Source of the DNA: Zunongwangia profunda SM-A87
GTDB taxonomy: Bacteria; Bacteroidota; Bacteroidia; Flavobacteriales; Flavobacteriaceae
Assembly (NCBI RefSeq): GCF_000023465.1
Contig: NC_014041.1
Coordinates: forward strand, 3,726,001-3,790,000
Direction of reading: 5' to 3'
DNA: 64,000 nt
The notes under the pieces were generated by a model that had not been told where the DNA came from, ran no database searches, and was given only the letters and a program-made list of their open reading frames with translations. Of this stretch, positions 7,866 to 49,978 are shown one piece after another; positions within the stretch are counted from its first letter, which is position 1, and each line of letters opens with the position of its first letter. The position numbers and the translations under genes are program-made.

Positions 7866-9167
7866 ATGGAAAAACAGGTAATAACACCAAAAATGAAAAG
7901 ACAGCGCAAGTTCCTATTGGTATTGCCGCTACTCGTACTTCCTTTCACCACCCTGATATTTTGGGTATTGGGAGGTGGACAGGTGCAGGAACTACAGGCA
8001 CAGGAAACTCCACAGAACGGGTTTAACCTTCACCTGCCGGAAGCAAAACTGACCGATGACAAGCAAATGGATAAGATGAGCTATTACAACCGGGCAGAAC
8101 AAGATTCGGCAAAATTCAGGGAACTCCGTAAAAATGATCCGAACTATAAAAACAGTGTGATTTCAGATATGGATGATGTATTACCCCAACAGGAAGTAAA
8201 ACCCGGTCAACTATCTTCCGGTGGACTGAAAACTTCCCTGTACGGAAGCGGTCAAGGCAACGATCCGAATACGGATAAAATTTACAAAAAGCTGGAAGCT
8301 TTGAACAGGGAATTGAACAAACCTGTGGAACGAACCCAGCTTCCTGAAGATTCCCCGAAACAGGAAACAAAAACCAATTATGGTAATACATCGGTGAGTT
8401 CCAGTGATGTGGACAGGCTGGAAGAAATGATGCACACCATGACCCAGCCGGAAGCACCTGACCCGGAACTGGAACAGCTCAACAGCATGCTGGAAAAGAT
8501 TCTGGATGTACAGCATCCCGAGCGGGTTCAGGAGAAATTAAAACAACTATCGGAGGCTCGCAGGGAACAACTGTACGGAGTATCCACTAAGCAGGAAGAT
8601 GATAGTATTTCCCTGATGCAAACCGGACATTTTGTTACTCCTACGGCAAATGGATTTTATTCCCTGAACGATGACCAAATTGCTGAACAGCCGGAAAATG
8701 CCATTCAGGCGGTTATTCACGAATCACAGACCGTAGTGAACGGATCTACCGTAAAGCTTCGCCTGGTCAATGATGTGTTCATTAACGGGGTACATATTCC
8801 CAAAGACAACTTTGTGTTTGGAATTGCTTCCCTTAGCGGGGAAAGGCTGCATATCAAGATCAACAGCATTAGAAGCGGTAATTCCCTTTTCCCGGTAGAA
8901 CTCTCCGTGTACGATATGGATGGATTGGACGGGGTTTACATTCCCGGCGCCATTACCCGGGATGTCGCCAAACAATCGGCTGACCGCTCCATGCAAAACA
9001 TTGGACTAACCTCCCTTGATCCTTCCTGGCAGGCACAGGCCGCAGGTGCCGGTATAGAAACGGCTAAATCACTGTTCAGTAAAAAAGTAAAACTGATAAA
9101 AGTAAGCCTGAAAGCGGGCTATCAGGTATTGCTCCGTGATGAGAAACAAAAACAAATCAATAAGTAA
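7866..9167 (+). CDS. traM: Conjugative transposon protein TraM (VirB10-like)
   Basis: A 433-residue protein with a cytoplasmic basic start, one TM segment (about residues 17-36), a long Gln/Glu/Pro-rich linker (about 40-260) and a C-terminal domain from about 270 (AIQAVIHESQTVVNGSTVKLRL). This is the architecture of TraM, the VirB10-type protein spanning inner membrane to outer complex. FGIASLSGERLHIKI and GVYIPGAITRDVAKQSADRSMQ are typical of the family. The last 20 or so codons recur near 46.06 kb as the truncated start of the second module copy. Confidence 0.88.
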   Translation: MEKQVITPKMKRQRKFLLVLPLLVLPFTTLIFWVLGGGQVQELQAQETPQNGFNLHLPEAKLTDDKQMDKMSYYNRAEQDSAKFRELRKNDPNYKNSVISDMDDVLPQQEVKPGQLSSGGLKTSLYGSGQGNDPNTDKIYKKLEALNRELNKPVERTQLPEDSPKQETKTNYGNTSVSSSDVDRLEEMMHTMTQPEAPDPELEQLNSMLEKILDVQHPERVQEKLKQLSEARREQLYGVSTKQEDDSISLMQTGHFVTPTANGFYSLNDDQIAEQPENAIQAVIHESQTVVNGSTVKLRLVNDVFINGVHIPKDNFVFGIASLSGERLHIKINSIRSGNSLFPVELSVYDMDGLDGVYIPGAITRDVAKQSADRSMQNIGLTSLDPSWQAQAAGAGIETAKSLFSKKVKLIKVSLKAGYQVLLRDEKQKQINK

Positions 9168-9190
9168 TAACCATTTAAAATTCCATAAAG

Positions 9191-10066
9191 ATGAAAAAGA
9201 TAAATGCACATATAGTGATGGGATTTTTCCTGTTCCTTTTCGGATTGAATGTAAATGCTCAGAGCATCGCTAAGCTTGAGCCCAAATCCATCGCTCCCTA
9301 TCCTTTGGAGATTACCTATTTTAAAACGACCAATATTATATTTCCAAGTGCCATTGTGGGTGTGGACAGGGGTAGTAAAGATGTGTTGGCGCAAAAAGCT
9401 AAAGGAGCTGCCAATATTCTACAGCTCAAAGCGGCAAGGGACAGTTTCCCGGAGACCAACCTGACGGTAATTACCGCAGACGGAAAATTAAATTCCTTTG
9501 TGATTAACTATACCCTAAAGCCTTCCGTATTAAATGTTTCCATGAAGGAAAGGGATAACAAAAACAGTATTTTCCTTTCACCCGGATCGGTTAATGAGGT
9601 TGAAGTCACTACTTATGCTACACATGCCTTGTATTCCAAATACAAAGGGCATAAGGTAAAGCGCAGCAAATATGGTATCCGCTTCGGATTGAACGGCATA
9701 TTCATTCGGGACAACCTGATGTACCTGAGGTTAACCATTACCAACACATCCAATATCAGCTATGATATTGACCAATTGCGTTTTTTTATCCGTGACCAGA
9801 AAAAGGCTAAACGTACAGCTTCACAGGAAATCGAGATTACCCCGGTACACATCCAAAATAAGATAACAAAAATTGACGGTCAGTCTTCACAGACCTTGGT
9901 AGTTGCCGTTCCCAAGTTTACCATTCCCGATAAGAAATATTTCGCTATTCAATTGTTTGAAGCAAACGGGGGAAGGCATATCGAACTCAGTGTAAAAAAC
10001 AGGACGATTATTAAAGCGGCAGTACTTCCCACATTGCAAATCAACAGGAAGTACACCTATCAATAA
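9191..10066 (+). CDS. traN: Conjugative transposon protein TraN (DUF4138, VirB9-like), copy 1
   Basis: A 291-residue secreted protein: signal peptide about residues 1-24 (GFFLFLFGLNVNAQ), then the beta-rich DUF4138 domain with TNIIFPSAIVGVDRGSKDVLAQK, RFGLNGIFIRDNLMYLRL and a C-terminal YFAIQLFEANGGRHIEL. TraN is the outer-membrane-complex partner of TraM. A second complete copy lies near 46.1 kb; by eye the two differ at about 16 positions plus a two-residue deletion after the signal peptide. The traO, traP and traQ genes that normally follow in CTnDOT are not seen after it. Confidence 0.88.
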   Translation: MKKINAHIVMGFFLFLFGLNVNAQSIAKLEPKSIAPYPLEITYFKTTNIIFPSAIVGVDRGSKDVLAQKAKGAANILQLKAARDSFPETNLTVITADGKLNSFVINYTLKPSVLNVSMKERDNKNSIFLSPGSVNEVEVTTYATHALYSKYKGHKVKRSKYGIRFGLNGIFIRDNLMYLRLTITNTSNISYDIDQLRFFIRDQKKAKRTASQEIEITPVHIQNKITKIDGQSSQTLVVAVPKFTIPDKKYFAIQLFEANGGRHIELSVKNRTIIKAAVLPTLQINRKYTYQ

Positions 10067-10083
10067 CTTTTAAATCAATTATC

Positions 10084-10884
10084 ATGAATCAGAAGAATTT
10101 AGAATACCTGAAAGATCAGATTAAATATACCGGTTTCGGGGAAGGTTTTGAAGCTCCCTTAAAACGAATGATGGAGATAGAAAAGCCAGCCTTTAAGCTG
10201 GTACATGAAACGCAATTTGGTACCGATAAGGTGGAAGCCCGAATGAATTTTAGCAAATCCAAGCAAACGGATATGTATTTCTTTAACTCCTATCAGGTGA
10301 GTGTACAAAAGGAAAATAATCCCGATGAAGCGATGAAACAAACCTTCTATATCAACAAAGGGAATAACATTACCCTCAAAGAAGCCTACAACTTAATGGA
10401 AGGCCGGTCGGTCAATAAGGATTTGACCAACAAGGAGGGGCAACTCTACAATGCCTGGTTACAGATGGATTTTAAACAGAGTGATGACAATGGAAATTTC
10501 AAAATACAGCAGTATCATCAAAACTATGGGTATGATCTGGAAGCAACACTCTCCAAACATCCTATTAAAGAACTGGAGAACGAAACCTATAAATCCAACC
10601 TAATCGATTCCCTGAAAAAGGGAAACCTGCAATCGGCAACTTTTCAAAAGGAAGGTTCGGAGCAGAAACAGTACATCGAGGCGAATCCCCGGTTTAAGAC
10701 CATCAATATCTATGACAGCAATATGCAACGGGTGGATAACCGCCAGTCCAAGACGGAAAAACAATCGGAAGCACAAAGCCGCTCTGCTAAACAGAAGCAT
10801 AAAGGCCAGGAGCAGCCAATTAACGACGAGGCTCCGGACATACCGAAGGCTAAGAAGAAAAGAAAGAGACCCACCATAACCTAA
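10084..10884 (+). CDS. DUF3945-like mobile-element accessory protein, copy 1
   Basis: A 266-residue protein without signal peptide or TM segment. The core has FYINKGNNITLKEAYNLMEG, NKEGQLYNAWLQMDFK, NYGYDLEATLSKHPIKELE and ANPRFKTINIYDSNMQRV, which I associate with DUF3945-type repeats of Bacteroidetes conjugative elements, where they are often fused to topoisomerase-like genes. The tail (from about residue 220) is very basic (KAKKKRKRPTIT), suggesting nucleic-acid binding. A second copy near 47 kb differs at only seven residues. A DNA-processing role is inference. Confidence 0.55.
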   Translation: MNQKNLEYLKDQIKYTGFGEGFEAPLKRMMEIEKPAFKLVHETQFGTDKVEARMNFSKSKQTDMYFFNSYQVSVQKENNPDEAMKQTFYINKGNNITLKEAYNLMEGRSVNKDLTNKEGQLYNAWLQMDFKQSDDNGNFKIQQYHQNYGYDLEATLSKHPIKELENETYKSNLIDSLKKGNLQSATFQKEGSEQKQYIEANPRFKTINIYDSNMQRVDNRQSKTEKQSEAQSRSAKQKHKGQEQPINDEAPDIPKAKKKRKRPTIT

Positions 10885-10889
10885 ATGAT

Positions 10890-11183
10890 ATGGAAGAGTT
10901 AAAGCCTTTATCTGATTTTTTTACGGCTATTGAGCAAGATGGCCGTATCAGTATTACACATATAGGGATATATGCTGCCCTGTTAGAGTACAGGGCAAAG
11001 ATGGGCAATAGCAATCCGATAGTGGCATTCAGTTATGACATTATGAAGATTGCAAAAATATCATCTGCCATGACGTATCATAAATGTGTAAAGGATCTCA
11101 ATGCCTACGGGTATATACGGTATGAACCCTCATTCAATAAAAACAAGGGGAGTAAAATTTACTTTCCCGAAAGCGATGGGTAG
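10890..11183 (+). CDS. Small winged-helix-like DNA-binding protein, copy 1
   Basis: A 97-residue soluble protein whose middle (AFSYDIMKIAKISSAMTYHKCVKDLNAYGYI, about residues 45-76) has the spacing of a winged helix-turn-helix: a helix, a turn at KISS, a recognition helix starting AMTYHKC, then a wing-like YIRYEPSFNKNKGSKIYF. This resembles the small replication-initiator or MarR-like wHTH proteins of Bacteroidetes elements. It starts 5 bp after the upstream gene, and a hairpin terminator follows. The copy near 47.8 kb differs at three residues, so it is under constraint. Target unknown. Confidence 0.6.
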   Translation: MEELKPLSDFFTAIEQDGRISITHIGIYAALLEYRAKMGNSNPIVAFSYDIMKIAKISSAMTYHKCVKDLNAYGYIRYEPSFNKNKGSKIYFPESDG

Positions 11184-11206
11184 AGAATAAATTAATATTT
11201 CGGTAC

Positions 11207-11224
11207 AAAGCCCTTCGGGGCTTT
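11207..11224 (+). terminator. Short hairpin after the wHTH gene
   Basis: AAAGCCC and GGGCTTT flank a TTCG tetraloop, followed by a T-rich stretch (TTTGCTGTTTT). This is a compact rho-independent terminator at the end of the tra/wHTH transcript, 24 bp after the stop. The same hairpin recurs in the second module. Confidence 0.7.
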
Positions 11225-11249
11225 TGCTGTTTTAAAGCGGAGGTGTAAG

Positions 11250-11408
11250 ATGAAAAATGAAGTAAAGAGAATTCCGCCGGAAAAAGCAATAGCACTATTG
11301 AAAGAAGACGGTATAGAAGTAACAGCGGAACAAGTGAAAGTCATCCTGGATTTTATGTATGAGATCGCGGATATTGTTGTAGATCAGTATCTGGCAAAAC
11401 CTGTCTGA
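11250..11408 (+). CDS. Conserved 52-residue protein, copy 1
   Basis: An ATG preceded by a strong GCGGAGGTG ribosome-binding site opens a 52-codon frame, MKNEVKRIPPEKAIALLKED, ending DQYLAKPV. The second module holds the same frame with the same ribosome-binding site and the same length; most base changes between copies are synonymous (two or three conservative replacements), which supports real coding. The middle, PPEKAIALLKEDGIEVTAEQVKVILDFMYEIAD, is helical and acidic and resembles small proteins found beside integrases in Bacteroidetes elements. Possibly a recombination directionality or regulatory factor; that is inference. Confidence 0.7.
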   Translation: MKNEVKRIPPEKAIALLKEDGIEVTAEQVKVILDFMYEIADIVVDQYLAKPV

Positions 11409-11435
11409 ATTTCGTATATTTATAAACGGAATCAG
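11405..11435. promoter_or_regulatory. Imperfect inverted repeat upstream of the recombinase, copy 1
   Basis: Arms CTGAATTTCGT and ACGGAATCAG flank an AT-rich centre (ATATTTATAA) just upstream of the recombinase start. The arms are better matched in the second module. Within it, TATATTTA resembles the Bacteroidetes -7 element TAnnTTTG. It may be a recombinase promoter with operator, or a binding site for a factor such as the neighbouring 52-residue protein. Function inferred. Confidence 0.4.
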
Positions 11436-11470
11436 GCTGTTAGATGGAACAACCTTAATACTTTGGAACG

Positions 11471-13069
11471 ATGAAAATTGCAGATTTATATATACGGGTA
11501 AGCACGGATGAACAGGCCGACAAAGGCTACTCACAGCGGGATCAGGAAGAGCGTTTGCGAAAGTATTGTGAAATCAACCATATTCAGGTACGAAAAGTGA
11601 TTTATGAGGATCATTCGGCGAAAACCTTTAAACGTCCTTCCTGGACAAAACTGCTAAATATCCTTCGTAAATCTAGAGGGCAGTCCGATTTGATATTGTT
11701 TACCAAATGGGACAGGTTCAGCCGGAATGCAGGAGATGCTTATCAGATGATCGGCACTTTGAGAAGATTGGGGGTAGAACCGCAGGCAGTAGAACAACCA
11801 CTTGATTTATCAATCCCTGAAAATAAAATGATGCTCGCCTTTTATCTGGCTGCTCCTGAAGTGGAAAATGACAGAAGAGCTCTAAATACCTTTCATGGGA
11901 TGCGAAGGGCTAAAAAAGAAGGACGCTGGATGGGCCTTGCTCCAATCGGTTATAAAAACAAAATTGATGAGAGTGGTAGAAAATATATTGCGCCAAGGAA
12001 AGTCCAGAGTGACATAATGAAATGGGTATTCAAAGAATTGGCAAAAAACACTTTTAGCACCGAACAAATATGGAAAACAGCTAGAGAAAAAGGGCTTAAA
12101 TGCAGTAAAAATAATTTCTGGACAGCTATCCGTAATCCTATGTATTGCGGTAAAATATTTATTCCTAAATACAAAGATGAAGAAAGTCAACTGGTGATGG
12201 GGCAACACGAACCCTTGATATCTGAAGCTTTGTTCTATGATGTTCAGGATGTGCTCGACGGTCGTAAAAAAATAATGCGGACTAAAATAAAAGTAGATGA
12301 CCGCTATCCCTTACGCGGTTTTGTCGTTTGTCCAGACTGCGGGCGTATGTTAACTAGTAGTAAATCCAAAGGGCGTTCCAAATATTACTATTACTACCAT
12401 TGCTCCGGTGGCTGTAAATTCAGACAAAAAGCGGAGTATATGAACGATAGGATGGTTTCTGAAATCGAGAAATATGTGTATTCCATCCCTAGGCTCAACC
12501 TATTTAAAGAAGTCATTACTTCCGTATATAAATCAAAAACCAGAGACAGGATCGGAAATATACAACAACTCAAAATCCGTTTACAGGATGAAAATAATAA
12601 ACTGAGTAAAGCCAGGGAACTGCTTTTATGTGGTGATATTGAAGCGGATGATTACCGAATTATGAAAGCGGATGCCGATAAAAAAATAAACAGGCTGGAA
12701 GCCAAACTCACAAGTTCGATTACAGACACGCAAAACGTGGAACCCCTGTGGGATAAGGCTATCAGCAATCTATCCAAGCTTAATATTCTCTATCAATCTG
12801 GGAATACTATACAGAAAAGAAAGATCATTGGTTCGGTCTTTCCTGAAAATCTGACTTTTGACGGATTTGAATATCGAACCACCCGAGTTAATGAAGCAAT
12901 CAAGTATATCACACTGATAAACAAAGACTTAAAAGGAAATAAAAAAGGGACAAATTCATCATTTTTGAATTTGTCCCATCAAGTGACCCCGGAGGGATTT
13001 AAACCTTTTCACGATCTTCCCAGTAATAACTGTCTGTTCAGCTGTTTTAATTTTATAGGTAACCTTTAA
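11471..13069 (+). CDS. Large serine recombinase (integrase of CTn1)
   Basis: This protein has the three-part large serine recombinase layout. The resolvase domain (about 1-150) has YIRVSTDEQ with nucleophile Ser11 and TKWDRFSRNAGD. A recombinase domain (about 160-270) has GLAPIGYKNKIDESGRKYI and NPMYCGKIFIPKYKDEE. A zinc ribbon and coiled coil (about 290-440) carries CPDCGRM and CSGGC. It catalyses integration and excision without a tyrosine. It is the last gene of the element, beside the att-like site. The final about 30 codons read through a hairpin, the att sequence and foreign DNA, so the annotated C-terminus (VTPEGFKPFHDL... to stop) is set by the insertion site and is not part of the conserved protein. 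Confidence 0.93.
   Translation: MKIADLYIRVSTDEQADKGYSQRDQEERLRKYCEINHIQVRKVIYEDHSAKTFKRPSWTKLLNILRKSRGQSDLILFTKWDRFSRNAGDAYQMIGTLRRLGVEPQAVEQPLDLSIPENKMMLAFYLAAPEVENDRRALNTFHGMRRAKKEGRWMGLAPIGYKNKIDESGRKYIAPRKVQSDIMKWVFKELAKNTFSTEQIWKTAREKGLKCSKNNFWTAIRNPMYCGKIFIPKYKDEESQLVMGQHEPLISEALFYDVQDVLDGRKKIMRTKIKVDDRYPLRGFVVCPDCGRMLTSSKSKGRSKYYYYYHCSGGCKFRQKAEYMNDRMVSEIEKYVYSIPRLNLFKEVITSVYKSKTRDRIGNIQQLKIRLQDENNKLSKARELLLCGDIEADDYRIMKADADKKINRLEAKLTSSITDTQNVEPLWDKAISNLSKLNILYQSGNTIQKRKIIGSVFPENLTFDGFEYRTTRVNEAIKYITLINKDLKGNKKGTNSSFLNLSHQVTPEGFKPFHDLPSNNCLFSCFNFIGNL
12947..12977 (-). terminator. Terminator hairpin inside the 3' end of the recombinase, copy 1
   Basis: GGGACAAATTCA and TGAATTTGTCCC form a perfect 12-bp stem with a 7-nt loop. 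On the minus strand the stem is followed by TTTTTTATTT, so it works as a rho-independent terminator leftward. In the second copy this hairpin lies directly downstream of tRNA-Arg, suggesting that the element carries a terminator for its target tRNA. Confidence 0.7.
12984..13005. other. att-like site: tRNA-Arg 3'-end remnant
   Basis: Nineteen of 22 positions match the complement of the 3' end of tRNA-Arg in the same orientation at the end of the second module (TGACCCCGG, three mismatches in the T-arm, then AAACC). The rest of a tRNA does not follow. Its place immediately after the recombinase and hairpin in both copies fits an attachment-site core. I infer that it is the junction between two tandem elements. 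Confidence 0.65.
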
Positions 13070-13372
13070 GCTATCCTTAAATTTAAACTTGTATAGTTCT
13101 GATTAACTTCAACACTATAAAAATAAGATGAATAATTCTTATTAAAACGTTTAAATTGAATAAAAGGTCTCGAAACAAACAAAAGGAATGGATTTAATTA
13201 TTTGTCTTGTATAAAATTTAAAATCCCATATAAATGTTCCAACTGAGCCTGGATGGAGGTTCAAAACCGTATAGTCCCCGTCATATTGTACCTTGAAAGA
13301 AGTATTTCTGAACTTAATTCTTCCATTTGCTTCCTAAGAAAGATCTTCAAAAGGTCTTGTTTTGATCCCCTC
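13070..13372. other. Gene-free boundary of the polysaccharide island
   Basis: About 300 bp without an intact gene. It holds the GH30 remnant listed separately. The part nearest the att site also reads, on the minus strand, as a protein-like open stretch (LKVTYKIKTAEQTVITGK) that runs into the att sequence. That could be the end of an older gene cut by integration, but I do not recognise it and it may be chance. No promoter is evident. Confidence 0.5.
13220..13322 (-). pseudogene. Remnant of a GH30 C-terminus
   Basis: On the minus strand one frame reads RNTSFKVQYDGDYTVLNLHP then GSVGTFIW. This aligns with the last residues of the intact GH30 at about 17.2 kb (YSFKVQYKGAYALLELDPGSVGTYSW). No start or catalytic region is present and an in-frame stop lies just upstream of the match. 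It is the tail of a second GH30 gene that was deleted or truncated at the island edge. It lies downstream of the sulfatase, where a further PUL enzyme would be expected. Confidence 0.75.
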
Positions 13373-14995
13373 CTATTCCATATAATTTCTGGAGTAGACA
13401 TTTTCTTTTTTATCACTTATCACACCAAAGTTTTTTTCGGTTATTCTTCGATAATCATCCAAATCATTGTTGGGATCATATTTTTGCTGTAGTAAACTTA
13501 GTTGTTTTTTTAAATCCACGAGCACATCCTTATATGCCGGGTTTCCTACCAGGTTTTTAATTTGTTCTGGATCGTTTTGGAGATCATAAAGCTCCCATTT
13601 ATCCATATTATAATAAAAATGAGCAAGGGTGTAGCGCTGCGTCCTTATTCCAAAATGGGGTTGTACATGATGCCAAAACGGGAATTCATAATAATGATAG
13701 TAATGTTCATTCTTCCAACTCTTGGGATTTTCTCCCTTCAGGAGCTGGGCAAAACTTCTCCCCTGCATTTTATGATCCTCTTTAATATTTGCTAATTCCA
13801 TCAGCGTAGGAGCAATATCAATATTTGAGATTATATTACCATTCTGGCTACCAGGCTTTATATGTCCTGGATATTTTACTAAAAATGGCATGGTTAGCGA
13901 TTCCTCATAGATAAACCTTTTGTCAAAAAAACCATGTTCTCCTAAATAAAAACCTTGATCAGAAGTAAGAATAATTATGGTATTTTCAGAGCGCTTAGTA
14001 CTTTCTAAATAATCCAGAAGCTTTCCGATATTGTCATCTATGGATCGTACACATGCCAAATAATCCTTGATGAATTTTTGATAGCGCCAGCGCCTCCCTT
14101 CCTGATAAGTCATTTTTTCCGGCTGAACAATCTCCTCTTTTCCAGCTCCATAAAATTCCCAAGCTATTTTTTCTTCTCCTTTCAAAGTATCCGGAGTCTT
14201 AAATTTTAAATCTCCCCGGGTGAGGTAGTCCATTGTCATCTCTGTATCCCCGGCAGTCTCTTCTCTACCTTTGTAAAGATCATTGAAGGTCTTTGGATAA
14301 GGCATTTCAATACTATCCCACAAGTGTTCATATTTTTGATCAGGACGCCAGGGACGATGGGGAGCCTTGTATTGCAATAACATTAAAAATGGCCTTGCGC
14401 TGTTTTTTTGCTTATCCAGCCACTCTAGCGCAAAACCTGTTGTTAAATTCGTAGCATATCCTCTTTGCTTGACATCCCTTCCATTTTCATTGTAAACGGG
14501 ATCCCAATAGGCCCCTTGTTGAACAACAGAATTATGATATTTGAAAGTATCGAAGCCCATGGGCCGTGAACCCAAATGCCATTTCCCAAATAAAGCTGAT
14601 TCGTAGCTTGCTTTTTGAAATGCCTGGGGAAAAGTCCATTTGGAAGAATCAAATTTTCCACCACTTTCATTCTTATAATATCCATTTACATTACTATAAT
14701 CCCCTGTTAATATTGCGGCCCGGCTTGGACCACAAATCGCATTTGTACATAACATACGATGGAAAAGCATCCCACCCTCTGCTATCCTATCTATATTGGG
14801 GGTGGGAGCAATATCCTTATATATTCCTCCATAAGCGCTAATGGCTTGTATAGTCAGGTCATCTGCCATTATGTAGATGATGTTTGGTCCTTTTTGAAGC
14901 TGTGTTTGTTCTTCCTGCTTACAAGAGAATCCCAAAGAGGTAAATAGAGCTATGACTACATATAAGAGAAATTTTTTACAGTTTATAAGATCCAT
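13373..14995 (-). CDS. Type I formylglycine sulfatase lipoprotein (PUL 1)
   Basis: A 540-residue arylsulfatase-type enzyme. The lipoprotein signal ends in LGFSC (about residue 25). PNIIYIMADDL gives the metal-binding Asp pair, and Cys88 in ICGPSRAAILTG is the residue oxidised to formylglycine by a sulfatase-maturing enzyme. GKWHLGSRPMGFDTF and TSDQGFYLGEHGFFDKRF are further S1-family motifs. It releases sulfate from a glycan, probably in the periplasm or at the cell surface. It is the last gene of the minus-strand run, 11 bp after the esterase-GH26 gene, so its target is probably a sulfated mannan-type substrate. Substrate is inferred. Confidence 0.9.
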   Translation of the reverse strand: MDLINCKKFLLYVVIALFTSLGFSCKQEEQTQLQKGPNIIYIMADDLTIQAISAYGGIYKDIAPTPNIDRIAEGGMLFHRMLCTNAICGPSRAAILTGDYSNVNGYYKNESGGKFDSSKWTFPQAFQKASYESALFGKWHLGSRPMGFDTFKYHNSVVQQGAYWDPVYNENGRDVKQRGYATNLTTGFALEWLDKQKNSARPFLMLLQYKAPHRPWRPDQKYEHLWDSIEMPYPKTFNDLYKGREETAGDTEMTMDYLTRGDLKFKTPDTLKGEEKIAWEFYGAGKEEIVQPEKMTYQEGRRWRYQKFIKDYLACVRSIDDNIGKLLDYLESTKRSENTIIILTSDQGFYLGEHGFFDKRFIYEESLTMPFLVKYPGHIKPGSQNGNIISNIDIAPTLMELANIKEDHKMQGRSFAQLLKGENPKSWKNEHYYHYYEFPFWHHVQPHFGIRTQRYTLAHFYYNMDKWELYDLQNDPEQIKNLVGNPAYKDVLVDLKKQLSLLQQKYDPNNDLDDYRRITEKNFGVISDKKENVYSRNYME

Positions 14996-15006
14996 ATTTC
15001 GTTTTT

Positions 15007-42329: not shown

Positions 42330-42361
42330 TAATGAGTAATATTAATCTAAACAATAAAAAC

Positions 42362-43189: not shown

Positions 43190-43195
43190 CTTTCT

Positions 43196-43400: not shown

Positions 43401-43515
43401 CTTAACATTGGTTATAACGGGTAAAAGACTTTGGTTCATTTCAGTCATTGGATGTCCTTAGTATTTACTGATAATCTCTAGCGCCTTATATAATAACGGA
43501 ATCTTAACTTTCGTT

Positions 43516-44038
43516 TTGTTTCTTTGTACTGATAACCTCAAAGGCTTTACAGAGGCGATCTTAAGTGTGTATCCAAAAACCCAGGTTCAGCTTTGTATTG
43601 TACACCAAATCCGTAATTCGCTGAAGTATATCGCCTCTAAAGATCAAAAAGAGTTTATGAAAGACCTGAAAAAGGTCTATAAAGCCGTCACTAAAGATGT
43701 AGCCGAAGATGAGTTATTGAACCTGGAAGAGAAATGGGGTAGTAAATATCCCGTAGTCATTGAAAGCTGGCAGCGCAATTGGGAGCAGCTATCACAGTAT
43801 TTTCAATACACTGAACCTATTAAAAAAATCTTTTACACCACTAACGCAGTGGAAGGATTCCACCGCCAGATCCGGAAAATCACCAAAACAAAAAGGAGCC
43901 TTCACCAATGATATTTTCCTGCTCAAGCTGATTTACCTGGCCACGAAGAATATTGTGAAGAAATTGACAGCTCTCTTGCATAATTGGAGCCTTACAATCC
44001 TGAAATTTTATATTAAATTTGGAGACAGGATACCCTAG
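43516..44038 (+). pseudogene. Broken IS256-family transposase (3' part, frameshifted)
   Basis: The frame opens at CTDNLKGFTEAILSVYPKTQ and continues VQLCIVHQIRNSLKYI and IFYTTNAVEGFHRQIRKITK, the middle and C-terminal part of Mutator/IS256 transposases (CIVHQIRNS and TTNAVEGFH are diagnostic). One extra A in an A-run then shifts the frame: the expected KGAFTNDIFLLKLIYLATKN continues in the next frame to about the listed end. The N-terminal half with the first catalytic Asp is missing. No terminal repeats could be assigned. Confidence 0.85.
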
Positions 44039-44082: not shown

Positions 44083-44790
44083 AACATCAGACAGAGTTTA
44101 ATTACAGATCCTTAAAAGCACCCCTAACTTTCACTTAATAAATTTCAAATTCCGGATAAGATGGGTTTGGGTTGAAATCAATTTTAGATAAAACCTACCT
44201 TCCCCATTTAAACATTGTTTTTATACATTTTTATTTTAAACCGGAATTTTTTAATTAAGTCCTATACGTTTTATTCTCATTACTGCTACCAGTCCGGCAG
44301 CTACAGTTATTCATAAAAGCACCAAAATAAACCACCAGTATGGCAGTATCTAAAGAAAGAAGCGTTCCAAAGTCCGCGGCAGGATTTCTAATTGATTTCC
44401 GTCCAAATTTTATATATTTCCTTCCCTCACTAATAGCAAATACAAAATCTATAGTAAGTTCCTTTCATCATTAGAAAATGCGATTTTTTACCTTCATTTA
44501 TTCAGTTTGATTTAAAAATCTTTTCTTTCTTCCAGACCATATCTAAGTGGATTTATCAATCCCAAGAAGTTTTTAATCTTTTAAAATAAGGTTGTTCATT
44601 CCAATTATCCCTCAGCACATTTCCCTTCCGTTCCTCCAGGAAAAAGCGCTTCCTTGTAAAAAGTCCCGGACACAACTGCAAAAGCAGCAGCAGATCATTT
44701 ATGAATAACGTGTCCTTGTACGAAAAGATACTGACTCTTCTCCTACTCCTGCTATGCTTTTCCACTTAAGTCTGGACTTGCAACAAAAAA
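44083..44790. other. Gene-free decayed region before IS3
   Basis: About 700 bp without a convincing gene. One minus-strand stretch reads as a hydrophobic tail followed by basic residues (ITVAAGLVAVMRIKRIG), as at the end of a membrane transporter, but stops interrupt it and the family is not recognisable. A 69-codon minus-strand frame near 44.56-44.77 kb has no support. Probably deletion and insertion scars. Confidence 0.4.
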
Positions 44791-44810
44791 CTGGACAAAT
44801 AGTTGAATGA

Positions 44811-45665
44811 CTACGCTGCTAGTTTAAGGTTATACATGTCTAATTCAAATTCTCTTATAGTTCTATTTCCTAAAAAGGAATGTCTTCTTCTATTATTATA
44901 CCAAGTTTCTATCCATCCAAAGATGGATAACTCCGCTTCAGATCTCAACTTATAATTGTGCCTATAAACCCATTCTACCTTTAATGATTTAAAGAACGAT
45001 TCAGCAATGGCATTATCCCAGCAATTACCTTTTCTGCTCATAGATTGGTTTACTAAGCCATTGTAACTTTTAATTAATGAGGTAAACTTATGGCTGGCAT
45101 ATTGTATACCTCGGTCGGAATGAAAAATTAAAGACTGGGTTAAAGTAGTTTTCTTTATAGCCATATGCCAAGCCTTAATAATAGTGTCTTCTGTACTTAG
45201 ATTATCGCTTAGAGCCCATCCAACAACTTTGCGGTTAAACAAATCAATAATGACAGTAAGGTATAACCAGCCCTGTTTGGTTTTGATATAGGTTATATCG
45301 CTTACCCAAACTTGATCCTGTCGGCTTACTTCAAAGTTTTGGTTTAATAAATTAGGAGCTATGGGGTAATTATGTTGACTATATGTGGTTGCTTTAAACT
45401 TACGTTTTCGTTTTGCAAACAAATAATTAGCACTCATAATACGTGCAACTCTAGGCTTTGATATTTTATAGCCTAATGTCTCTAGTTCTGTTTTTATTCT
45501 AGGTGAACCATAGCTTTGAAAGCTATCTTTAAATATAGATTTAATAAGCCCAGTTACCTTTTGATTTTCTAACCATAATTTACTTGGTCCCGATTGTAAC
45601 CAATGGTAATAGCCACTTTTGCTTACTTTCAATATTTTACACATCGTCTCGACAGGAAATCTCAT
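44811..45665 (-). CDS. IS3-family transposase OrfB (DDE integrase domain)
   Basis: 284 residues from the first ATG. An HTH_21-like region (SKSGYYHWLQSGPSKLW) precedes the rve catalytic core with the DDE triad: Asp in VWVSDITYIKTKQGWLYLTV, Asp in LIFHSDRGIQYA and Glu in NCWDNAIAESFFKSLKVEW. The open frame continues upstream of the ATG (KYRFIKQHLMRFPVETM), so the protein is normally made as an OrfA-OrfB fusion by frameshifting in the A-rich end of orfA. No lesion is seen; the element may be active. Confidence 0.93.
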   Translation of the reverse strand: MRFPVETMCKILKVSKSGYYHWLQSGPSKLWLENQKVTGLIKSIFKDSFQSYGSPRIKTELETLGYKISKPRVARIMSANYLFAKRKRKFKATTYSQHNYPIAPNLLNQNFEVSRQDQVWVSDITYIKTKQGWLYLTVIIDLFNRKVVGWALSDNLSTEDTIIKAWHMAIKKTTLTQSLIFHSDRGIQYASHKFTSLIKSYNGLVNQSMSRKGNCWDNAIAESFFKSLKVEWVYRHNYKLRSEAELSIFGWIETWYNNRRRHSFLGNRTIREFELDMYNLKLAA

Positions 45666-45676
45666 AAGGTGTTGTT

Positions 45677-45991
45677 TTATAAACCTGTATTTTTCTTGTC
45701 GCTCGCGGAGAAGATGCTGATGGCCTTTTTTAAGATGTCTCGTTCTAACTCGGCTTCTTTTAATGCCTTTTTTAATCGGGCTATCTCTTTTTCTTCATCG
45801 GTCATTTTAGGATTACCACGGCCAGGGAAACTGTTGTTACCGTAATCTTTTAACTCTCTACGCCAACGGTAAAGTACAGATGGAAATATATCCAAGTCTT
45901 CACATACTTGTTTTACATTGCCTTTAGCATAACTTAACTCGACTGCTTTTTGTTTAAATTCTAAGGTGTAATGTTTAGATTTTCTTCTCAT
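45677..45991 (-). CDS. IS3-family OrfA (DNA-binding subunit)
   Basis: 104 residues starting MRRKSKHYTLEFKQKAVELS, the HTH_8-type domain that binds the element ends (VKQVCEDLDIFPSVLYRWRREL), then a leucine-zipper-like helix (KEIARLKKALKEAELERDILKKA). The Met chosen matches the family start; an upstream Met adds eight unlikely residues. Its 3' end holds an A-run (AAGAAAAAT) suited to programmed frameshifting into orfB. Confidence 0.9.
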   Translation of the reverse strand: MRRKSKHYTLEFKQKAVELSYAKGNVKQVCEDLDIFPSVLYRWRRELKDYGNNSFPGRGNPKMTDEEKEIARLKKALKEAELERDILKKAISIFSASDKKNTGL

Positions 45992-46060
45992 AATTGCTAA
46001 GGTAATAACTAGCAAAAATATTCTCTCAACTTAGTGTCCGGTCTAATGTAGTAATTCCAC

Positions 46061-46121
46061 CCTGAAAGCAGGCTATCAGGTATTGCTCCGTGATGAAAAA
46101 CAAAAGCAAATCAATAAGTAA
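46061..46121 (+). pseudogene. 3' fragment of traM, copy 2
   Basis: About 20 codons (LKAGYQVLLRDEKQKQINK) identical or nearly so to the end of traM at 9.1 kb, followed by the same spacer and traN start. The 5' part is missing because of the rearrangement at the IS3. Confidence 0.85.
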
Positions 46122-46144
46122 TAACTATTTAAAATTCCATAAAG

Positions 46145-47014
46145 ATGAAAAAGATAAATGCATGTATGGTGATGGGATTTTTCCTGTTCCTTTTCGGATT
46201 GAATGTAAATGCTCAAAGCATCCTTCAACCCAAATCAATCGCTCCTTATCCTGTGGAGATTACCTATTTTAAAACGACCAATATTATATTTCCAAGCGCC
46301 ATTGTAGGTGTGGACAGGGGCAGTAAAGATGTGTTGGCACAAAAAGCCATAGGAGCTGCCAATATTCTACAGCTCAAAGCGGCAAGGGACAGTTTTCCGG
46401 AGACTAACCTGACGGTAATTACCGCAGACGGGAAATTAAATTCTTTTGTGATTAACTATGACCCCAAGCCATCTGTCTTGAATATTTCCATGAAGGAAAG
46501 GGATAACAAAAACAGTATTTTCCTTTCACCAGGATCGGTTAACGAAGCTGAAGTCACTACTTATGCTACACATGCCTTGTATTCCAAATACAAAGGGCGT
46601 AAGGTAAAGCACCGTAAATATGGTATACGTTTCGGATTGAACGGGATATTCATTCGGGACAACCTGATGTACCTGCGGTTAACCATTACCAATACCTCCA
46701 ATATCAGTTATGATATTGACCAATTACGCTTTTTTATCCGTGACCAGAAAAAAGCGAAAAGGACGGCTTCACAGGAAATCGAGATTACTCCGGTACACAT
46801 CCAAAATAAGGTAACAAAAATTGACGGTCGGTCTTCACAGGCCTTGGTGGTTGCGGTTCCCAAGTTTACCATTCCCGATAAGAAATATTTCGCTATTCAA
46901 TTGTTTGAAGCAAACGGGGGAAGGCATATCGAACTCAGTGTAAAAAACAGGACGATTATTAAAGCTGTAGTACTTCCCACATTGCAAATCAACAGGAAAT
47001 ACACCTATCAATAA
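46145..47014 (+). CDS. traN: TraN, copy 2 (orphan)
   Basis: 289 residues, complete with signal peptide and DUF4138 domain; two residues shorter than copy 1 just after the signal cleavage site (SILQPKS against SIAKLEPKS). Substitutions are scattered and mostly conservative, so it has stayed under selection or arrived recently. Its partners TraJ, TraK and TraM are missing at this end, so on its own it cannot build a transfer complex; it could only work with proteins of CTn1. Confidence 0.88.
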   Translation: MKKINACMVMGFFLFLFGLNVNAQSILQPKSIAPYPVEITYFKTTNIIFPSAIVGVDRGSKDVLAQKAIGAANILQLKAARDSFPETNLTVITADGKLNSFVINYDPKPSVLNISMKERDNKNSIFLSPGSVNEAEVTTYATHALYSKYKGRKVKHRKYGIRFGLNGIFIRDNLMYLRLTITNTSNISYDIDQLRFFIRDQKKAKRTASQEIEITPVHIQNKVTKIDGRSSQALVVAVPKFTIPDKKYFAIQLFEANGGRHIELSVKNRTIIKAVVLPTLQINRKYTYQ

Positions 47015-47031
47015 CTTTTAAATCAATTATC

Positions 47032-47832
47032 ATGAATCAGAAGAATTTAGAATACCTGAAAGATCAGATTAAATATACCGGTTTCGGGGAAGGCTTTGAA
47101 GCTCCCTTAAAGCGGATGATGGAAATAGAAAAGCCAGCTTTTAAGCTGGTACATGAAACCCAATTCGGTATTGATAAGGTGGAAGCCCGAATGAATTTTA
47201 GCAAGTCCAAGCAAACGGATATGTATTTCTTCAACTCGTACCAGGTGAGTGTGCAAAAGGAAAACAATCCTGATGAGGCTATGAAACAGACCTTCTATAT
47301 CAACAAAGGCAATAATATTACGCTGAAAGAAGCCTATAACTTAATGGAAGGCCGGTCGGTTAATAAAGATCTAAATAACAAGGAAGGACAACTCTACAAT
47401 GCATGGCTACAGATGGATTTTAAACAGAGTGATGACAATGGAAATTTCAAAATACAGCAGTACCATCAAAACTATGGCTATGATCTGGAAGCAACACTCG
47501 CTAAACATCCCATTAAAGAACTGGAGAACGAAACCTATAAATCCAATCTGATGGATTCCCTGAAAAAGGGAAACCTGCAATCGGCGACTTTTCAAAAGGA
47601 AGGTTCGGAGCAGAAACAGTACATCGAGGCGAATCCACGGTTTAAGACCATCAATATCTATGACAGCAATATGCAACGGGTGGATAATCGTAAGTCCAAG
47701 ACGGAAAAACAATCGGAAGCACAAAGCCGCTCTGCTAAACAGGAGCATAAAGGTCAGGAGCAGCCGATTGCCGACGAGGCTCCGGATATACCGAAGGCTA
47801 AAAAGAAAAGAAAGAGACCCACCATAACCTAA
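47032..47832 (+). CDS. DUF3945-like mobile-element accessory protein, copy 2
   Basis: 266 residues, same length as copy 1 and differing at only seven positions (for example T to I in QFGTDK, S to A in LSKHP). The core motifs and the basic tail KAKKKRKRPTIT are kept, which supports a DNA-related role. It lies between traN and the wHTH gene with the same spacing as in copy 1. Confidence 0.55.
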   Translation: MNQKNLEYLKDQIKYTGFGEGFEAPLKRMMEIEKPAFKLVHETQFGIDKVEARMNFSKSKQTDMYFFNSYQVSVQKENNPDEAMKQTFYINKGNNITLKEAYNLMEGRSVNKDLNNKEGQLYNAWLQMDFKQSDDNGNFKIQQYHQNYGYDLEATLAKHPIKELENETYKSNLMDSLKKGNLQSATFQKEGSEQKQYIEANPRFKTINIYDSNMQRVDNRKSKTEKQSEAQSRSAKQEHKGQEQPIADEAPDIPKAKKKRKRPTIT

Positions 47833-47837
47833 ACGAT

Positions 47838-48131
47838 ATGGAACAGCTAAAGCCTTTATCTGATTTTTTTACGGCTATTGAGCAGGATGGCCGTATCAGC
47901 ATTACACATATAGGGATTTATGCTGCCCTGTTGGAGTACCGGGCGCAGATGGGCAATAGCAATCCAATAGTGGCATTTAGTTATGACATTATGAAGATTG
48001 CAAAAATATCGTCTGCCATGACCTATCATAAATGTGTAAAGGATCTCAATGCCTACGGGTATATACGGTATGAACCCTCATTTAATAAAAACAGGGGGAG
48101 TAAAATTTACTTTCCCGAAAGCGATGGGTAG
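47838..48131 (+). CDS. Small winged-helix-like DNA-binding protein, copy 2
   Basis: 97 residues, three substitutions relative to copy 1 (E3Q, K37Q and K87R), none in the predicted recognition helix (AMTYHKCVKDL). The hairpin terminator after it is also kept. The strict conservation suggests a shared DNA target in both elements, perhaps a site upstream of the recombinase. Confidence 0.6.
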   Translation: MEQLKPLSDFFTAIEQDGRISITHIGIYAALLEYRAQMGNSNPIVAFSYDIMKIAKISSAMTYHKCVKDLNAYGYIRYEPSFNKNRGSKIYFPESDG

Positions 48132-48154
48132 AGAATGAATTAATTTTTCGGTAC

Positions 48155-48172
48155 AAGGCCCTTCGGGGCTTT
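48155..48172 (+). terminator. Short hairpin after the wHTH gene, copy 2
   Basis: GCCC and GGGC around a TTCG loop, extended outward by a G:T and A:T pairs, then TTTGCTGTTTT. Same position and structure as in copy 1. Confidence 0.65.
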
Positions 48173-48197
48173 TGCTGTTTTAAAGCGGAGGTGCAAG

Positions 48198-48356
48198 ATG
48201 GAAAATGAAGTAAAAAGAATTCCGCCGGAAAAGGCAATAGCACTATTAAAAGAAGATGGTATAGAAGTAACAGCGGAACAGGTGAAAGTAATCCTGGATT
48301 TTATGTATGAGATCGCGGATATTGTAGTAGATCAGTATCTGGCAAAACCTGCCTGA
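48198..48356 (+). CDS. Conserved 52-residue protein, copy 2
   Basis: ATG after GCGGAGGTGCAAG opens MENEVKRIPPEKAIALLKED and ends DQYLAKPA, the same length as copy 1, with mostly synonymous base changes. Conservation of frame, ribosome-binding site and position next to the recombinase supports a real small gene with a recombination or regulatory role. Confidence 0.7.
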   Translation: MENEVKRIPPEKAIALLKEDGIEVTAEQVKVILDFMYEIADIVVDQYLAKPA

Positions 48357-48383
48357 ATTTCGTATATTTATAAACGAAATCAG
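48353..48383. promoter_or_regulatory. Inverted repeat upstream of the recombinase, copy 2
   Basis: Arms CTGAATTTCGT and ACGAAATCAG around an AT-rich centre, slightly better paired than in copy 1 and overlapping the stop of the 52-residue gene. Candidate operator or promoter for the recombinase. Confidence 0.4.
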
Positions 48384-48418
48384 GCTGTTAGATGGTACAA
48401 CCTTAAGACACTCAAAAG

Positions 48419-49978
48419 ATGAAAATTGCAGATTTATACATACGGGTAAGCACGGATGAACAGGCCGACAAGGGATACTCACAACGGGATCAGGAAGAGC
48501 GTTTGCGCAAGTATTGTGAGATCAACCATATTCAGGTACGAAAAGTGATTTATGAGGATCATTCTGCAAAAACCTTTAAACGTCCTTCCTGGACAAAACT
48601 ATTGGGCATCCTTCGTAAATCCAGAGGGCAGTCCGATTTGATCTTGTTTACCAAATGGGACAGGTTCAGCCGAAATGCGGGAGATGCTTATCAGATGATC
48701 GGTACGTTGAGAAGATTGGGGGTAGAACCGCAGGCAGTAGAGCAACCACTCGACTTATCCATTCCTGAAAATAAAATGATGCTTGCCTTTTATCTGGCTG
48801 CTCCTGAAGTGGAAAATGACAGAAGGGCATTGAATGTATTTCATGGGATGCGCCGGGCTAAAAAAGAAGGGCGCTGGATGGGAACGGCACCGATTGGATA
48901 CATCAATAAAACCAATGAAAGCGGTAAAAAATATATTGCTCCAAGGGAAGTCCAAAGCGATGTTATGAAATGGGCATTCAAAGAGTTGGCAAAAAATATG
49001 TTCAGTACCGAGCAGGTTTGGAAAATGGCAAAGGAAAAGGGGCTGAAATGCAGTAAGAATAATTTCTGGACAGCTATCCGTAATCCTATGTATTGCGGTA
49101 AAATATTTATTCCTAAATACAAAGATGAAGAAAGTCAATTGGTAATGGGGCAACACGAACCCCTGATATCTGAAGCCTTGTTTTATGATGTACAGGATGT
49201 GCTTGACGGTCGTAAAAAAGTGATGCGGGCTAAAATGAAGGTGGATGGTCATTTTCCATTACGTGGATTTGTGATTTGCCCGGATTGCGGACGTATGCTG
49301 ACCGGTAGCAAGTCGAAAGGGCGTTCCCAGTATTATTACTATTACCATTGCTCTGGTGGCTGTAAATTCAGACACAAGGCTGAAGATATGAATGAAAAGA
49401 TCGTTTCCGAAATTGGGAAATATGTGTATTCCATTCCTAAGCTGAATCTATTTAAAGAAGTCATTACTTCGGTATATAAAACAAAAACCAGAGACAGGAT
49501 TGGAAATATACAGCAGTTGAAAATCCGTTTACAGGACGAAAACAATAAACTGAGTAAAGCAAGGGAATTGCTTTTGTGTGGTGATATTGAAGCGGATGAT
49601 TACCGAATGATGAAAGCGGATGCCGATAAAAAAATAAACAGGCTGGAAGCTAAACTGACAAGCACGATAACCGACACTCAAAACGTAGAACCCCTGTGGG
49701 ACAAGGCGATCAGCAATCTTTCACAGTTGGGCTACTTGTATGAAACCGGGACGATTACACAAAAAAGAAAGATCATTGGTTCGGTCTTTCCTGAAAATCT
49801 GACTTTTGACGGATTTGAATATCGAACCACCCGGGTTAATGAAGCAATCAAGTATATCACACTGATTGACAAAGATTTAAATGGAAATAAAAATGGGACA
49901 AACTCATCATTTTTGAATTTGTCCCATCAAGTGACCCCGGCAGGATTCAAACCTGCAACCCTCAGAGCCGAAATCTGA
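48419..49978 (+). CDS. Large serine recombinase (integrase of CTn2)
   Basis: 519 residues with the same domain order as copy 1: nucleophile Ser11 in YIRVSTDEQ, SRNAGD, GTAPIGYINKTNESG, zinc-ribbon CPDCGRM and CSGGC, and a coiled-coil end. The first 150 residues are almost identical to copy 1; the recombinase domain (about 165-230), which helps define site choice, and the region near 430 differ most. The last codons (VTPAGFKPATLRAEI) are the antisense of tRNA-Arg, so the true conserved protein ends before them. Complete catalytic set, so probably active. Confidence 0.93.
   Translation: MKIADLYIRVSTDEQADKGYSQRDQEERLRKYCEINHIQVRKVIYEDHSAKTFKRPSWTKLLGILRKSRGQSDLILFTKWDRFSRNAGDAYQMIGTLRRLGVEPQAVEQPLDLSIPENKMMLAFYLAAPEVENDRRALNVFHGMRRAKKEGRWMGTAPIGYINKTNESGKKYIAPREVQSDVMKWAFKELAKNMFSTEQVWKMAKEKGLKCSKNNFWTAIRNPMYCGKIFIPKYKDEESQLVMGQHEPLISEALFYDVQDVLDGRKKVMRAKMKVDGHFPLRGFVICPDCGRMLTGSKSKGRSQYYYYYHCSGGCKFRHKAEDMNEKIVSEIGKYVYSIPKLNLFKEVITSVYKTKTRDRIGNIQQLKIRLQDENNKLSKARELLLCGDIEADDYRMMKADADKKINRLEAKLTSTITDTQNVEPLWDKAISNLSQLGYLYETGTITQKRKIIGSVFPENLTFDGFEYRTTRVNEAIKYITLIDKDLNGNKNGTNSSFLNLSHQVTPAGFKPATLRAEI
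49895..49925 (-). terminator. Terminator hairpin downstream of tRNA-Arg
   Basis: GGGACAAACTCA and TGAATTTGTCCC form a stem with one mismatch and a 7-nt loop. Read on the minus strand it starts 6 nt after the tRNA 3' end and is followed by ATTTTTATTT, an ordinary rho-independent terminator. It is inside the element and antisense to the end of the recombinase gene. Confidence 0.75.

Follow-up and report, generated by a model that had tools for sequence, protein, structure and literature searches.

Apparent accretion of three elements at one tRNA-Arg gene of Zunongwangia profunda SM-A87, with a serine integrase gene predicted to span its own attachment site

The integrase of CTnDOT is of the tyrosine type. 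SSV-type archaeal integrases and phage Mx8 Int are tyrosine recombinases with attP lying within the integrase gene; SSV integrates at tRNA, and the C-terminus of Mx8 Int changes on integration. Elements may also be found stacked or tied to a tRNA gene: in S. agalactiae, the composite of a decayed ICE with IME_Sag2603_tRNAlys is reported (PMC5704250) to excise both as the IME alone and as the whole, while the Riemerella anatipestifer 10K island, at an Arg-tRNA, is described in part of PMC6764341 as carrying a tyrosine integrase and a 53-bp repeat downstream of the tRNA. For serine integrases, the position of the zinc-domain motif has been described as differing by 5 bp between attB and attP (PMC3783163, in part).

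The window considered here is a stretch of 64,000 nucleotides of the marine bacterium Z. profunda SM-A87 (NC_014041.1, 3,726,001 to 3,790,000; Table 1). Self-BLAST yields a single long direct repeat, 9107-13006 against 46061-49954, in the same orientation and at 91.1% over 3,901 columns; each copy comprises ~60 bp from the end of traM, followed by traN, a pair of unnamed genes and a large serine recombinase (LSR), with all frames open. A sequence-only reading had already recognized this repeat and its open genes, with bounds 23-24 bp too short, since the repeat enters the 3' end of tRNA-Arg(tcg). That reading took each copy for the end of a conjugative element, which holds for the left one, on its tra operon, where it terminates a complete 111.5 kb conjugative element (ICE1) starting at genome position 3,627,466. 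The right copy, in contrast, starts at the base directly following an IS3-family element and is just the last four genes of a second element (ICE2), with neither relaxase, TraG-TraM nor left end. A serine recombinase and an att sequence are present in both, as proposed, but the LSR reading frame stays open through the att core: on the left it passes into PUL-side DNA (stop at 13069), its native tail being encoded at the far end of ICE1, and on the right it enters the tRNA (stop at 49978).

Table 1. Features of the locus, in window coordinates
Feature	Position	Strand	Basis or remark
tra genes of ICE1 (TraG, J, K, M families and others)	977-9167	+	NCBIfam above cut-off
Left module: traM end, traN, two unnamed genes, LSR	9107..12990	+	Right end of ICE1
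LSR (left)	11471..13069	+	Resolvase/Recombinase/Zn_ribbon; body to 12982; frame crosses att core; joined frame
attR1: att core and 23-nt tRNA-Arg 3' fragment	12983..13005	-	T-loop motif at attB spacing
Polysaccharide utilisation (PUL) island	13006..43189	.	Pfam
PUL genes: sulfatase, GH26-esterase, GH30, esterase, epimerase, GH130, SSF transporter, AraC, DUF5060, PKD, two SusD, two SusC-like	13373-38973		Pfam
Oxidoreductase genes and TIM-barrel protein, within PUL island	40072-43189		Pfam
Tyrosine-integrase C-terminus remnant	43192..43347	-	Same orientation as tRNA
IS256 transposase remnant	43462..43908	+	NCBIfam NF033543
IS3-family element	44773..46060	-	End is start of right module
Right module: traM end (last ~60 bp), traN, two unnamed genes, LSR	46061..49938	+	Truncated second element (ICE2)
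LSR (right)	48419..49978	+	Body to 49930; last 16 codons (stop included) in tRNA-Arg antisense strand
tRNA-Arg(tcg), 3' end as attB/attR2	49931..50005	-	ARAGORN

Fresh duplication is rejected as the origin of the two copies: nucleotide identity is 88-95% per gene, dN/dS is 0.03-0.12 per gene, and the nearest relatives are unlike, the right LSR pointing to Sinomicrobium oceani and the left to an element of Z. pacifica sited at a different tRNA-Arg. The view that two related elements used one tRNA thus stands. The modules are mosaics of several elements.

The remainder of ICE1 lies left of the window. Its gene set comprises relaxase, MobC, coupling protein and primase (these four in L003), TraG/J/K/M/N and the LSR, and it carries a SusC/SusD pair of its own as cargo. 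The TraG-TraN transfer operon, relaxase and coupling protein are those of a CTnDOT-type element; the tyrosine integrase of such an element's end is absent, an LSR standing at the tRNA end. A tyrosine integrase in L067 lies inside a 5.2 kb stretch of ICE1, missing from G301, a relative whose own ICE has a SusC/SusD-like cluster (ORF list, by eye). The 86 kb stretch separating ICE1 from the core flank, which holds an IS3 copy 100% identical to that of the window, was considered as a third LSR element and rejected, with no LSR match and no partner arm there; among ORFs of at least 100 codons in 279 kb, no LSR match was found beyond the two known.

Free and occupied tRNA-Arg(tcg) genes in relatives give both element junctions and a 10-bp LSR core, AAGTGACCCC; the tRNA 3' end is without an LSR end in G299, G302 and G100. 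At the far end of the PUL segment the tRNA 3' end recurs as a direct repeat, 20 of the 23 bases of 12983-13005 equalling 49931-49953. On either side of the PUL the site is attR-type, an ICE arm joined to a tRNA arm, and an exact partner arm occurs once in the whole genome, at 3,627,466, 111.5 kb upstream; the predicted attP of the ICE1 circle is CATCAAGTGACCCC followed directly by TATGG. In tRNA sites TTCRAAC lies at +9 after GTGACC; the attP arms of ICE1, L107 and L115 have it at +14, which is the 5-bp shift, seen in the right arm alone, the left attB arm being unconserved between G299 and G302. Both LSRs have Resolvase, Recombinase and zinc-ribbon domains in order, with R9, V10 and S11 invariant in 13 aligned sequences. 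The LSR is a predicted recombinase of attP x attB and, given a directionality factor, of attL x attR; the tRNA T-loop would supply its zinc-domain motif, and the GA in GTGACC its crossover bases.

The open frame into antisense tRNA recurs in 65 of 80 related LSR loci. Left ends sought by exact 10-mers of the tRNA end gave one chance-level match in nine stretches (eight with adjacent tRNA), and a P-arm pattern took the place of that search; the far-end arm was not found in 29 of 48 LSR genomes (30 without one chance match). An in-frame conserved tail accompanies 28 of 29 pattern matches, with 21-26 codons in 24 of the 28 and outliers of 12 residues (one) and >50 (three). Frames into the tRNA and in-frame tails at the far end therefore place attP inside the integrase gene. 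Integration appears to swap the last ~22 residues: the circle form would end in a conserved, probably helical tail from the element's other end, and the integrated form in a peptide from the tRNA antisense strand. An undamaged LSR frame into a native tail was seen only three times (L107, L115 and P0119), the L115 tail being the short one. A tail resembling backward-read tRNA (by motif count) occurs in 97 of the best 120 of 4,095 database relatives, and annotated C-termini are therefore probably not native.

Open frame and conserved tail could both be by-products of constraint on attP DNA, with no functional protein tail. Tail codons 1-9 coincide with the DNA-conserved attP arm, and the search pattern fixes motif spacing and part of these same codons, so the matches do not test them. 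Against this, codons 10-21, outside the arm, are still under coding constraint, with mean pairwise differences of 0.514, 0.356 and 0.641 at codon positions 1, 2 and 3, and synonymous to nonsynonymous counts of 70:71 in frame versus 30:145 and 15:207 in shifted frames (related sequences, counts non-independent); we regard the explanation by DNA alone as rather unlikely. A broader proposal, to which we give somewhat less than even weight, is that of a widespread Bacteroidota serine integrase family with attP in its own gene, whose circle form carries a conserved amphipathic C-terminal tail and whose integrated form carries an antisense-tRNA peptide. The swap might serve as a memory of state that favors integration by the circle form and changes synapsis of the integrated form, and a T-loop-reading zinc domain might let the family move among tRNA genes.

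The 37 kb sugar-degradation island between the two element ends bears what look like marks of an arrival of its own. The tyrosine-integrase remnant matches, at 74-77% over 30-31 aa, two Phage_integrase proteins of this genome that lie beside tRNA genes; alone, it falls below Pfam/NCBIfam detection and is without match in a PDB search. This 31-residue match has the expected side and orientation, and now lies ~6.6 kb of IS and ICE2 DNA away from the tRNA. The remnant, the break inside the tRNA 3' fragment, and a contig (L101) identical for 9,993 bp from the att core on but with another LSR make the PUL segment look like an island accreted separately. In three other tyrosine-integrase islands of the same genome, a 23-nt distal repeat is absent at up to 1 mismatch. 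Neither the left 382 bp of the PUL nor a 2,000-bp piece of its SusC finds a match >65 bp in any of six relatives, which bears out the suggestion that this PUL copy is accessory; G100 and G302 hold a divergent cluster elsewhere, matching window positions 21007-25792 at 66-72%. For the sulfatase, the best 120 of 787 relatives include one near-identical cluster, the rest being at 63-70%, and as for the GH26-esterase, no other of the 299 genomes has a match at E<=1e-150, while within this one its first half has a second match, at 69%.

What the DNA shows directly are the junctions, the types of site, the frames and the conservation of the tail; we infer an order of events, a tyrosine route for the PUL, the crossover bases, LSR activity and any influence of the tail on recombination direction. 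ICE1 would have integrated by its own LSR at the tRNA-Arg(tcg) 3' end; a PUL island with a tyrosine integrase would then have entered the same tRNA, leaving ICE1 joined to the 23-nt 3' fragment, and its integrase would have decayed to the remnant. A second LSR element would have entered the restored 3' end, later to be cut back to four genes at the IS3 copy. Taken as a whole, accretion of three elements at one tRNA, with an LSR gene that spans attP and exchanges its tail, is probably the best explanation.

The sequence-only reading had left the PUL as either accreted or cargo of the second element. Accretion agrees with a separate island; ordinary cargo of an intact second element is not supported, since the right copy is without relaxase, TraG-TraM and left end. 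Cargo of a tandem second element that afterwards lost its transfer genes by deletion at the IS3 would fit the intact right module, LSR and tRNA, the IS3 copy at the break, and the Sus genes carried by ICE1 and by the ICE of G301. A clean tandem should, however, give an attP-type junction of two P arms, GTGACCCC joined to TATGGTAC (the attP arm), while 12983 runs into a tRNA fragment with attB spacing; with a tyrosine-integrase remnant at the tRNA side of the PUL besides, we consider this history unlikely.

Incoming DNA (PUL, module, tRNA and flank) might instead have taken the place of the native tRNA region, entering through homologous recombination at its right side and joined illegitimately at its left. 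The mosaic modules would suit such an event, as would the tRNA types: the full tRNA is type B, as in G300, G100 and G302, the ICE1-side fragment is type A-like, and the relatives with the most similar neighboring YqeY protein, G299 (98%) and G301 (94%), have type A. The left break nevertheless lies exactly at the att core in L101 too, a MAG labelled Planctomycetota, whose 103 differences from the window all fall in 11674-12989, with 0 among the 9,993 positions from 12990 to 22982; its LSR differs and its PUL is identical from the att core on, a change at 12989 that could be gene conversion. Moreover, tRNA 3' fragments lie beside the LSR (by eye) in L118, L127, L150, L157, L160 and L162, and in L127 (Chitinophaga arvensicola) the order is LSR, tRNA-Lys 3' fragment, 8.7 kb, tyrosine integrase, full tRNA-Lys. 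Replacement thus seems quite improbable.

Accretion by three elements has consequences for how the PUL could move. Its loss alone by att x att recombination, once envisioned, is not supported, given the two attR-type sites that bracket it and the sole exact partner arm at 3,627,466; the published model (PMC3783163) aligns such a pair solely antiparallel, unproductively. With these sites and one partner arm, the LSR should therefore free ICE1 or ICE1+PUL (148 kb), and the PUL is predicted to travel by its action solely within that composite, not alone. Deletion by homologous recombination, also foreseen, is possible in principle. With one partner arm and a PUL moving only in the 148 kb composite, capture of an island between paired copies of an ICE's end could let that ICE enlarge. 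The range of natural landing sites would be wider with serine integrases that target tRNA genes, and a recombinase C-terminus dependent on integration state, if true, would make direction control testable by simple tail deletion.

In the open-access literature covered, partly as sections of papers (including PMC5704250, PMC6764341, PMC6491836, PMC12884075 and PMC3783163) and with TIGER/Islander tables left out, we found described neither a serine integrase at Bacteroidota tRNA genes nor an LSR gene spanning attP, which is no proof of absence.

Like CTnDOT-kind conjugative transposons of Bacteroidota, ICE1 has TraG, J, K, M and N families above cut-off, a relaxase and a coupling protein; unlike CTnDOT, its integrase is a serine one, located after traN and two small genes. 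As in SSV and Mx8, attP appears to lie inside the integrase gene, but here the enzyme is a serine recombinase losing just its last ~22 residues. The S. agalactiae composite, as far as PMC5704250 describes it, likewise has elements stacked at one tRNA 3' end; both its integrases are of the tyrosine type, whereas here LSR ends flank an apparent tyrosine-type island and the middle piece alone is not predicted to excise. The Riemerella anatipestifer 10K island likewise comes from Bacteroidota and sits at an arginine tRNA, beside which its integrase lies; it is set apart from the present locus by its tyrosine integrase and 53-bp repeat (PMC6764341, in part). With the large serine integrases A118/LI, phiC31 and Bxb1, both LSRs share their domains, and the 5-bp motif shift (PMC3783163, in part) is seen here too. 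The present group differs from those enzymes in using as attB the 3' ends of tRNA genes, across many isotypes, and in having attP within the integrase gene, the tail being exchanged on integration.

A direct repeat pairing 9107-13006 with 46061-49954 (91.1% identity over 3,901 columns) is the only long one in a self-comparison of the window, and the paired module ends are real. The sequence-only reading was thus right about the repeat and placed its ends too early, for it extends further, into tRNA-Arg(tcg). Most 100-bp steps show 85-99% identity between the copies; six, all within the recombinase, show 73-84%. Either module encodes TraN, two proteins that match nothing in Pfam or NCBIfam, and a large serine recombinase (LSR); both LSR copies have Resolvase, Recombinase and zinc-ribbon domains. 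Left-versus-right dN/dS for the four genes (0.116, 0.032, 0.054, 0.074) argues that both copies have been kept under selection. Compared in 300-bp steps, both modules are mosaics of several elements: the left LSR is for the most part equal to a Z. pacifica element at tRNA-Arg(acg) (L100), and the right LSR to S. oceani (L097) over its last ~1.2 kb, the rest of each differing.

Features in and around the repeated modules (window positions)
Feature	Position	Strand	Remark
Left module	9107-12990		
Left LSR	11471-13069	plus	
Left att site	12983		
Polysaccharide utilisation island (PUL)	13006-43189		
Tyrosine-integrase remnant	43192-43347	minus	tRNA side of PUL
IS256 remnant			next after tyrosine-integrase remnant
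IS3-family element	44773-46060		
Right module	46061-49938		
Right LSR	48419-49978	plus	
Right att site	49931		
tRNA-Arg(tcg)	49931-50005	minus	
GIY-YIG gene	50010-50245	minus	within 50010-50335
Second copy of tRNA-Arg 5' half	50299-50331		beside GIY-YIG gene

The host genome is one contig of 5,128,187 bp, with the window at 3,726,001-3,790,000; its nearest named relatives among the loci listed are Sinomicrobium oceani, Zunongwangia pacifica and Z. atlantica. At the same tRNA, genome G299 has no LSR element and reads ...AATAAAGTGACCCCGGAGGGATTC, and Z. atlantica (G301) carries one element of about 107 kb, its left junction joining AATAAAGTGACCCC to TATGGTACAAAACTCG and its right junction CATCAAGTGACCCC to GGAGGG; the common core, AAGTGACCCC, is the 3' end of the tRNA. 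An identical left arm lies at 3,627,466 of the Z. profunda genome, so the left copy closes a 111.5 kb conjugative element, ICE1, with genes for relaxase, MobC, coupling protein, primase and TraG, J, K, M and N. The stretch in which ICE1 and the Z. atlantica element differ is a cargo hot spot, occupied in ICE1 (L004-L005) by a type I restriction subunit, a YobI-like ATPase and a SusC/SusD pair, and in Z. atlantica by SusC/SusD-like and other secreted-enzyme-like ORFs (by eye). Left of ICE1, core DNA restarts ~86 kb farther out. This interval (G000:C1 ~3,540,840-3,627,466), which reaches from the conserved left flank to ICE1, contains various genes, among them a further, identical copy of the IS3 element in the window, but no LSR.

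The right copy is the stump of an element. It begins at the first base past the IS3-family element, which has a 100% identical copy ~176 kb to the left, and no Tra genes or relaxase are seen between the PUL and 46061. Across the whole genome, the left arm typical of these elements has a single exact site, ICE1's own, leaving the stump without a partner; one extra, mismatched site is probably a chance hit, two having come from the reversed control.

According to PMC3783163, LSRs join attP and attB, and the attL and attR products recombine only with a directionality factor; two attR sites align only in an unproductive antiparallel way, and attB has its zinc-domain motif closer to the centre than attP, by 5 bp. 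At the tRNA site, TTCRAAC (the T-loop) stands at +9 after GTGACC, and in ICE1, L107 and L115 the attP arm has CTCGAAC or TTCGAAC at +14. Around the GA of GTGACC, the probable crossover, the left arm TTTGTCCCAT comes close to being an inverted copy of the right arm ATGGTACAAA. By the 5-bp shift, 12983 combines a P arm with a B-type arm (TTTAAAC at +9), and 49931 is of equal type. With both PUL-flanking sites alike, the LSR would be expected to release either ICE1 (111.5 kb) or ICE1 together with the PUL (148.5 kb), not the PUL alone; homologous recombination between the modules would delete 37 kb. This corrects the earlier account of PUL movement, in which att x att recombination, too, could move or remove the island.

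The PUL is probably a separate island of the tyrosine-integrase kind. At its left junction, GTGACCCCGGAGGGATTTAAACC matches the tRNA 3' end in 20/23 bases before unrelated DNA begins. The tyrosine-integrase remnant has matches at six other places in the genome, with a tRNA upstream in 4 of five fetched; in the two places whose genes were read, the gene has the orientation of the tRNA (tRNA-Pro and tRNA-Arg(tct)) and begins 232-248 bp behind it, with a match of 74-77% identity over 30-31 residues, and the remnant alone is recognized by no Pfam, NCBIfam or PDB search. Chitinophaga arvensicola (L127) has the order LSR, tRNA-Lys 3' fragment, 8.7 kb, tyrosine-integrase relative, full tRNA. Counting against such an island, a 23-nt distal repeat is absent from three other tyrosine-integrase islands of the genome. 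L101, a contig of a MAG that bears the label Planctomycetota, aligns with 11660-22982; its 103 differences all fall at 11674-12989, and 12990-22982 is identical. The PUL side is thus attached, precisely at the att core, to two different element ends. That L101 can be placed by its MAG label only also counts against the island reading. The PUL's left 382 bp plus 2,000 bp of its SusC have no match longer than 65 bp in six relatives (G100, G297, G299-G302); G100 and G302 carry a divergent cluster, 66-72% to 21007-25792, located beyond the shared core flank.

With the ends of ICE1 joined, the LSR reads ...LSHQVTP, then MVQNSNQLIEDLKLLADILAA-stop. Its frame spans the att junction into a conserved native tail encoded at the element's far end, so integration would take away a conserved C-terminus. 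The arm pattern GT(N8)TGGKAC(N5)TCGAAC, searched in 48 LSR-bearing genomes, gave 29 matches in 19 (reversed pattern, 3). All but one (28, in 18 genomes) open an in-frame tail like V-[NIT]-P-[MVL]-V-Q-N-S-N-x-[LF]-[LI]-x-D-L-[KR]-x-L, part of codons 1-9 being set by the pattern; the 29th (L212) is taken as chance. Tails have 21-26 codons in 24 cases, 12 in one and at least 52 in three. Past the DNA arm, in codons 10-21, the differences among 24 distinct sequences are 0.514/0.356/0.641 at positions 1/2/3; for close pairs, the ratio of synonymous to nonsynonymous codon differences is 70:71 in frame against 30:145 and 15:207 in shifted frames. Hydrophobic residues at positions 11, 12, 15, 18 and 21 suggest an amphipathic helix. 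Nine tails share contig and strand with an LSR and lie to its expected side, the distance to the outermost LSR being 76-132 kb (two in G326, one each in G328, G329, G330, G331, G345, G346 and G352); no LSR so placed was found for the others. G331 has a further LSR relative 14.5 kb from its tail, and in G335 tail and LSR occupy opposite strands of one contig. An undamaged frame enters the native tail in L107, L115 (12 residues) and database protein P0119; broken frames precede the junction in L213 and L229, and the Z. pacifica LSR L233 contains an internal stop and is truncated where its contig begins. Serial left-end tails in G340 (contig C7 at 1628, 38224 and 79292) and G332 (contig C2 at 1546556, 1547159 and 1548492) suggest arrays or remnants of successive integrations.

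At E ≤ 1e-60 the LSR occurs in 13 of 299 genomes of the host's family, its own included, and a tRNA or tmRNA lies at its 3' end in 13 of 15 loci from the other genomes (L009-L023). Among the best 80 of at least 571 loci in named genomes, the LSR ends at a tRNA 3' end (Pro, Lys, Arg, Met, Leu, Val or His) in 66, always antisense, with its frame open into the tRNA in 65 (L165, with a broken frame, is the exception); none of the 80 has a tRNA within 200 bp of its LSR start. As for the other 14, the LSR ends within 61 bases of a contig end in L130 and L135, adjoins a tRNA 3' fragment, by eye, in seven (L101, L118, L127, L150, L157, L160, L162), and has the native tail in L107 and L115; L119, L163 and L164 fall in no class. 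LSR genes also occur in pairs, ~1.7-3.4 kb start to start (L107, L119, G326, G328, G329, G341), and several inner members, as well as database relatives, end in another kind of C-terminus, which has a stop of its own.

Small GIY-YIG units seem to insert into tRNA genes and to accumulate there. The unit in the window also contains a 20-bp palindrome; Z. atlantica has four in series ahead of its tRNA, and Flavobacterium poyangense (L150) two similar ones with tRNA-Met 3' fragments.

In the passages of literature consulted, neither a tRNA-using LSR family nor an LSR gene spanning attP was found. The two-end arrangement itself is of the ordinary kind, accretion at a tRNA; the surprising and general part, judged from sequence, is a family of LSRs that would use tRNA genes and whose gene would span attP.
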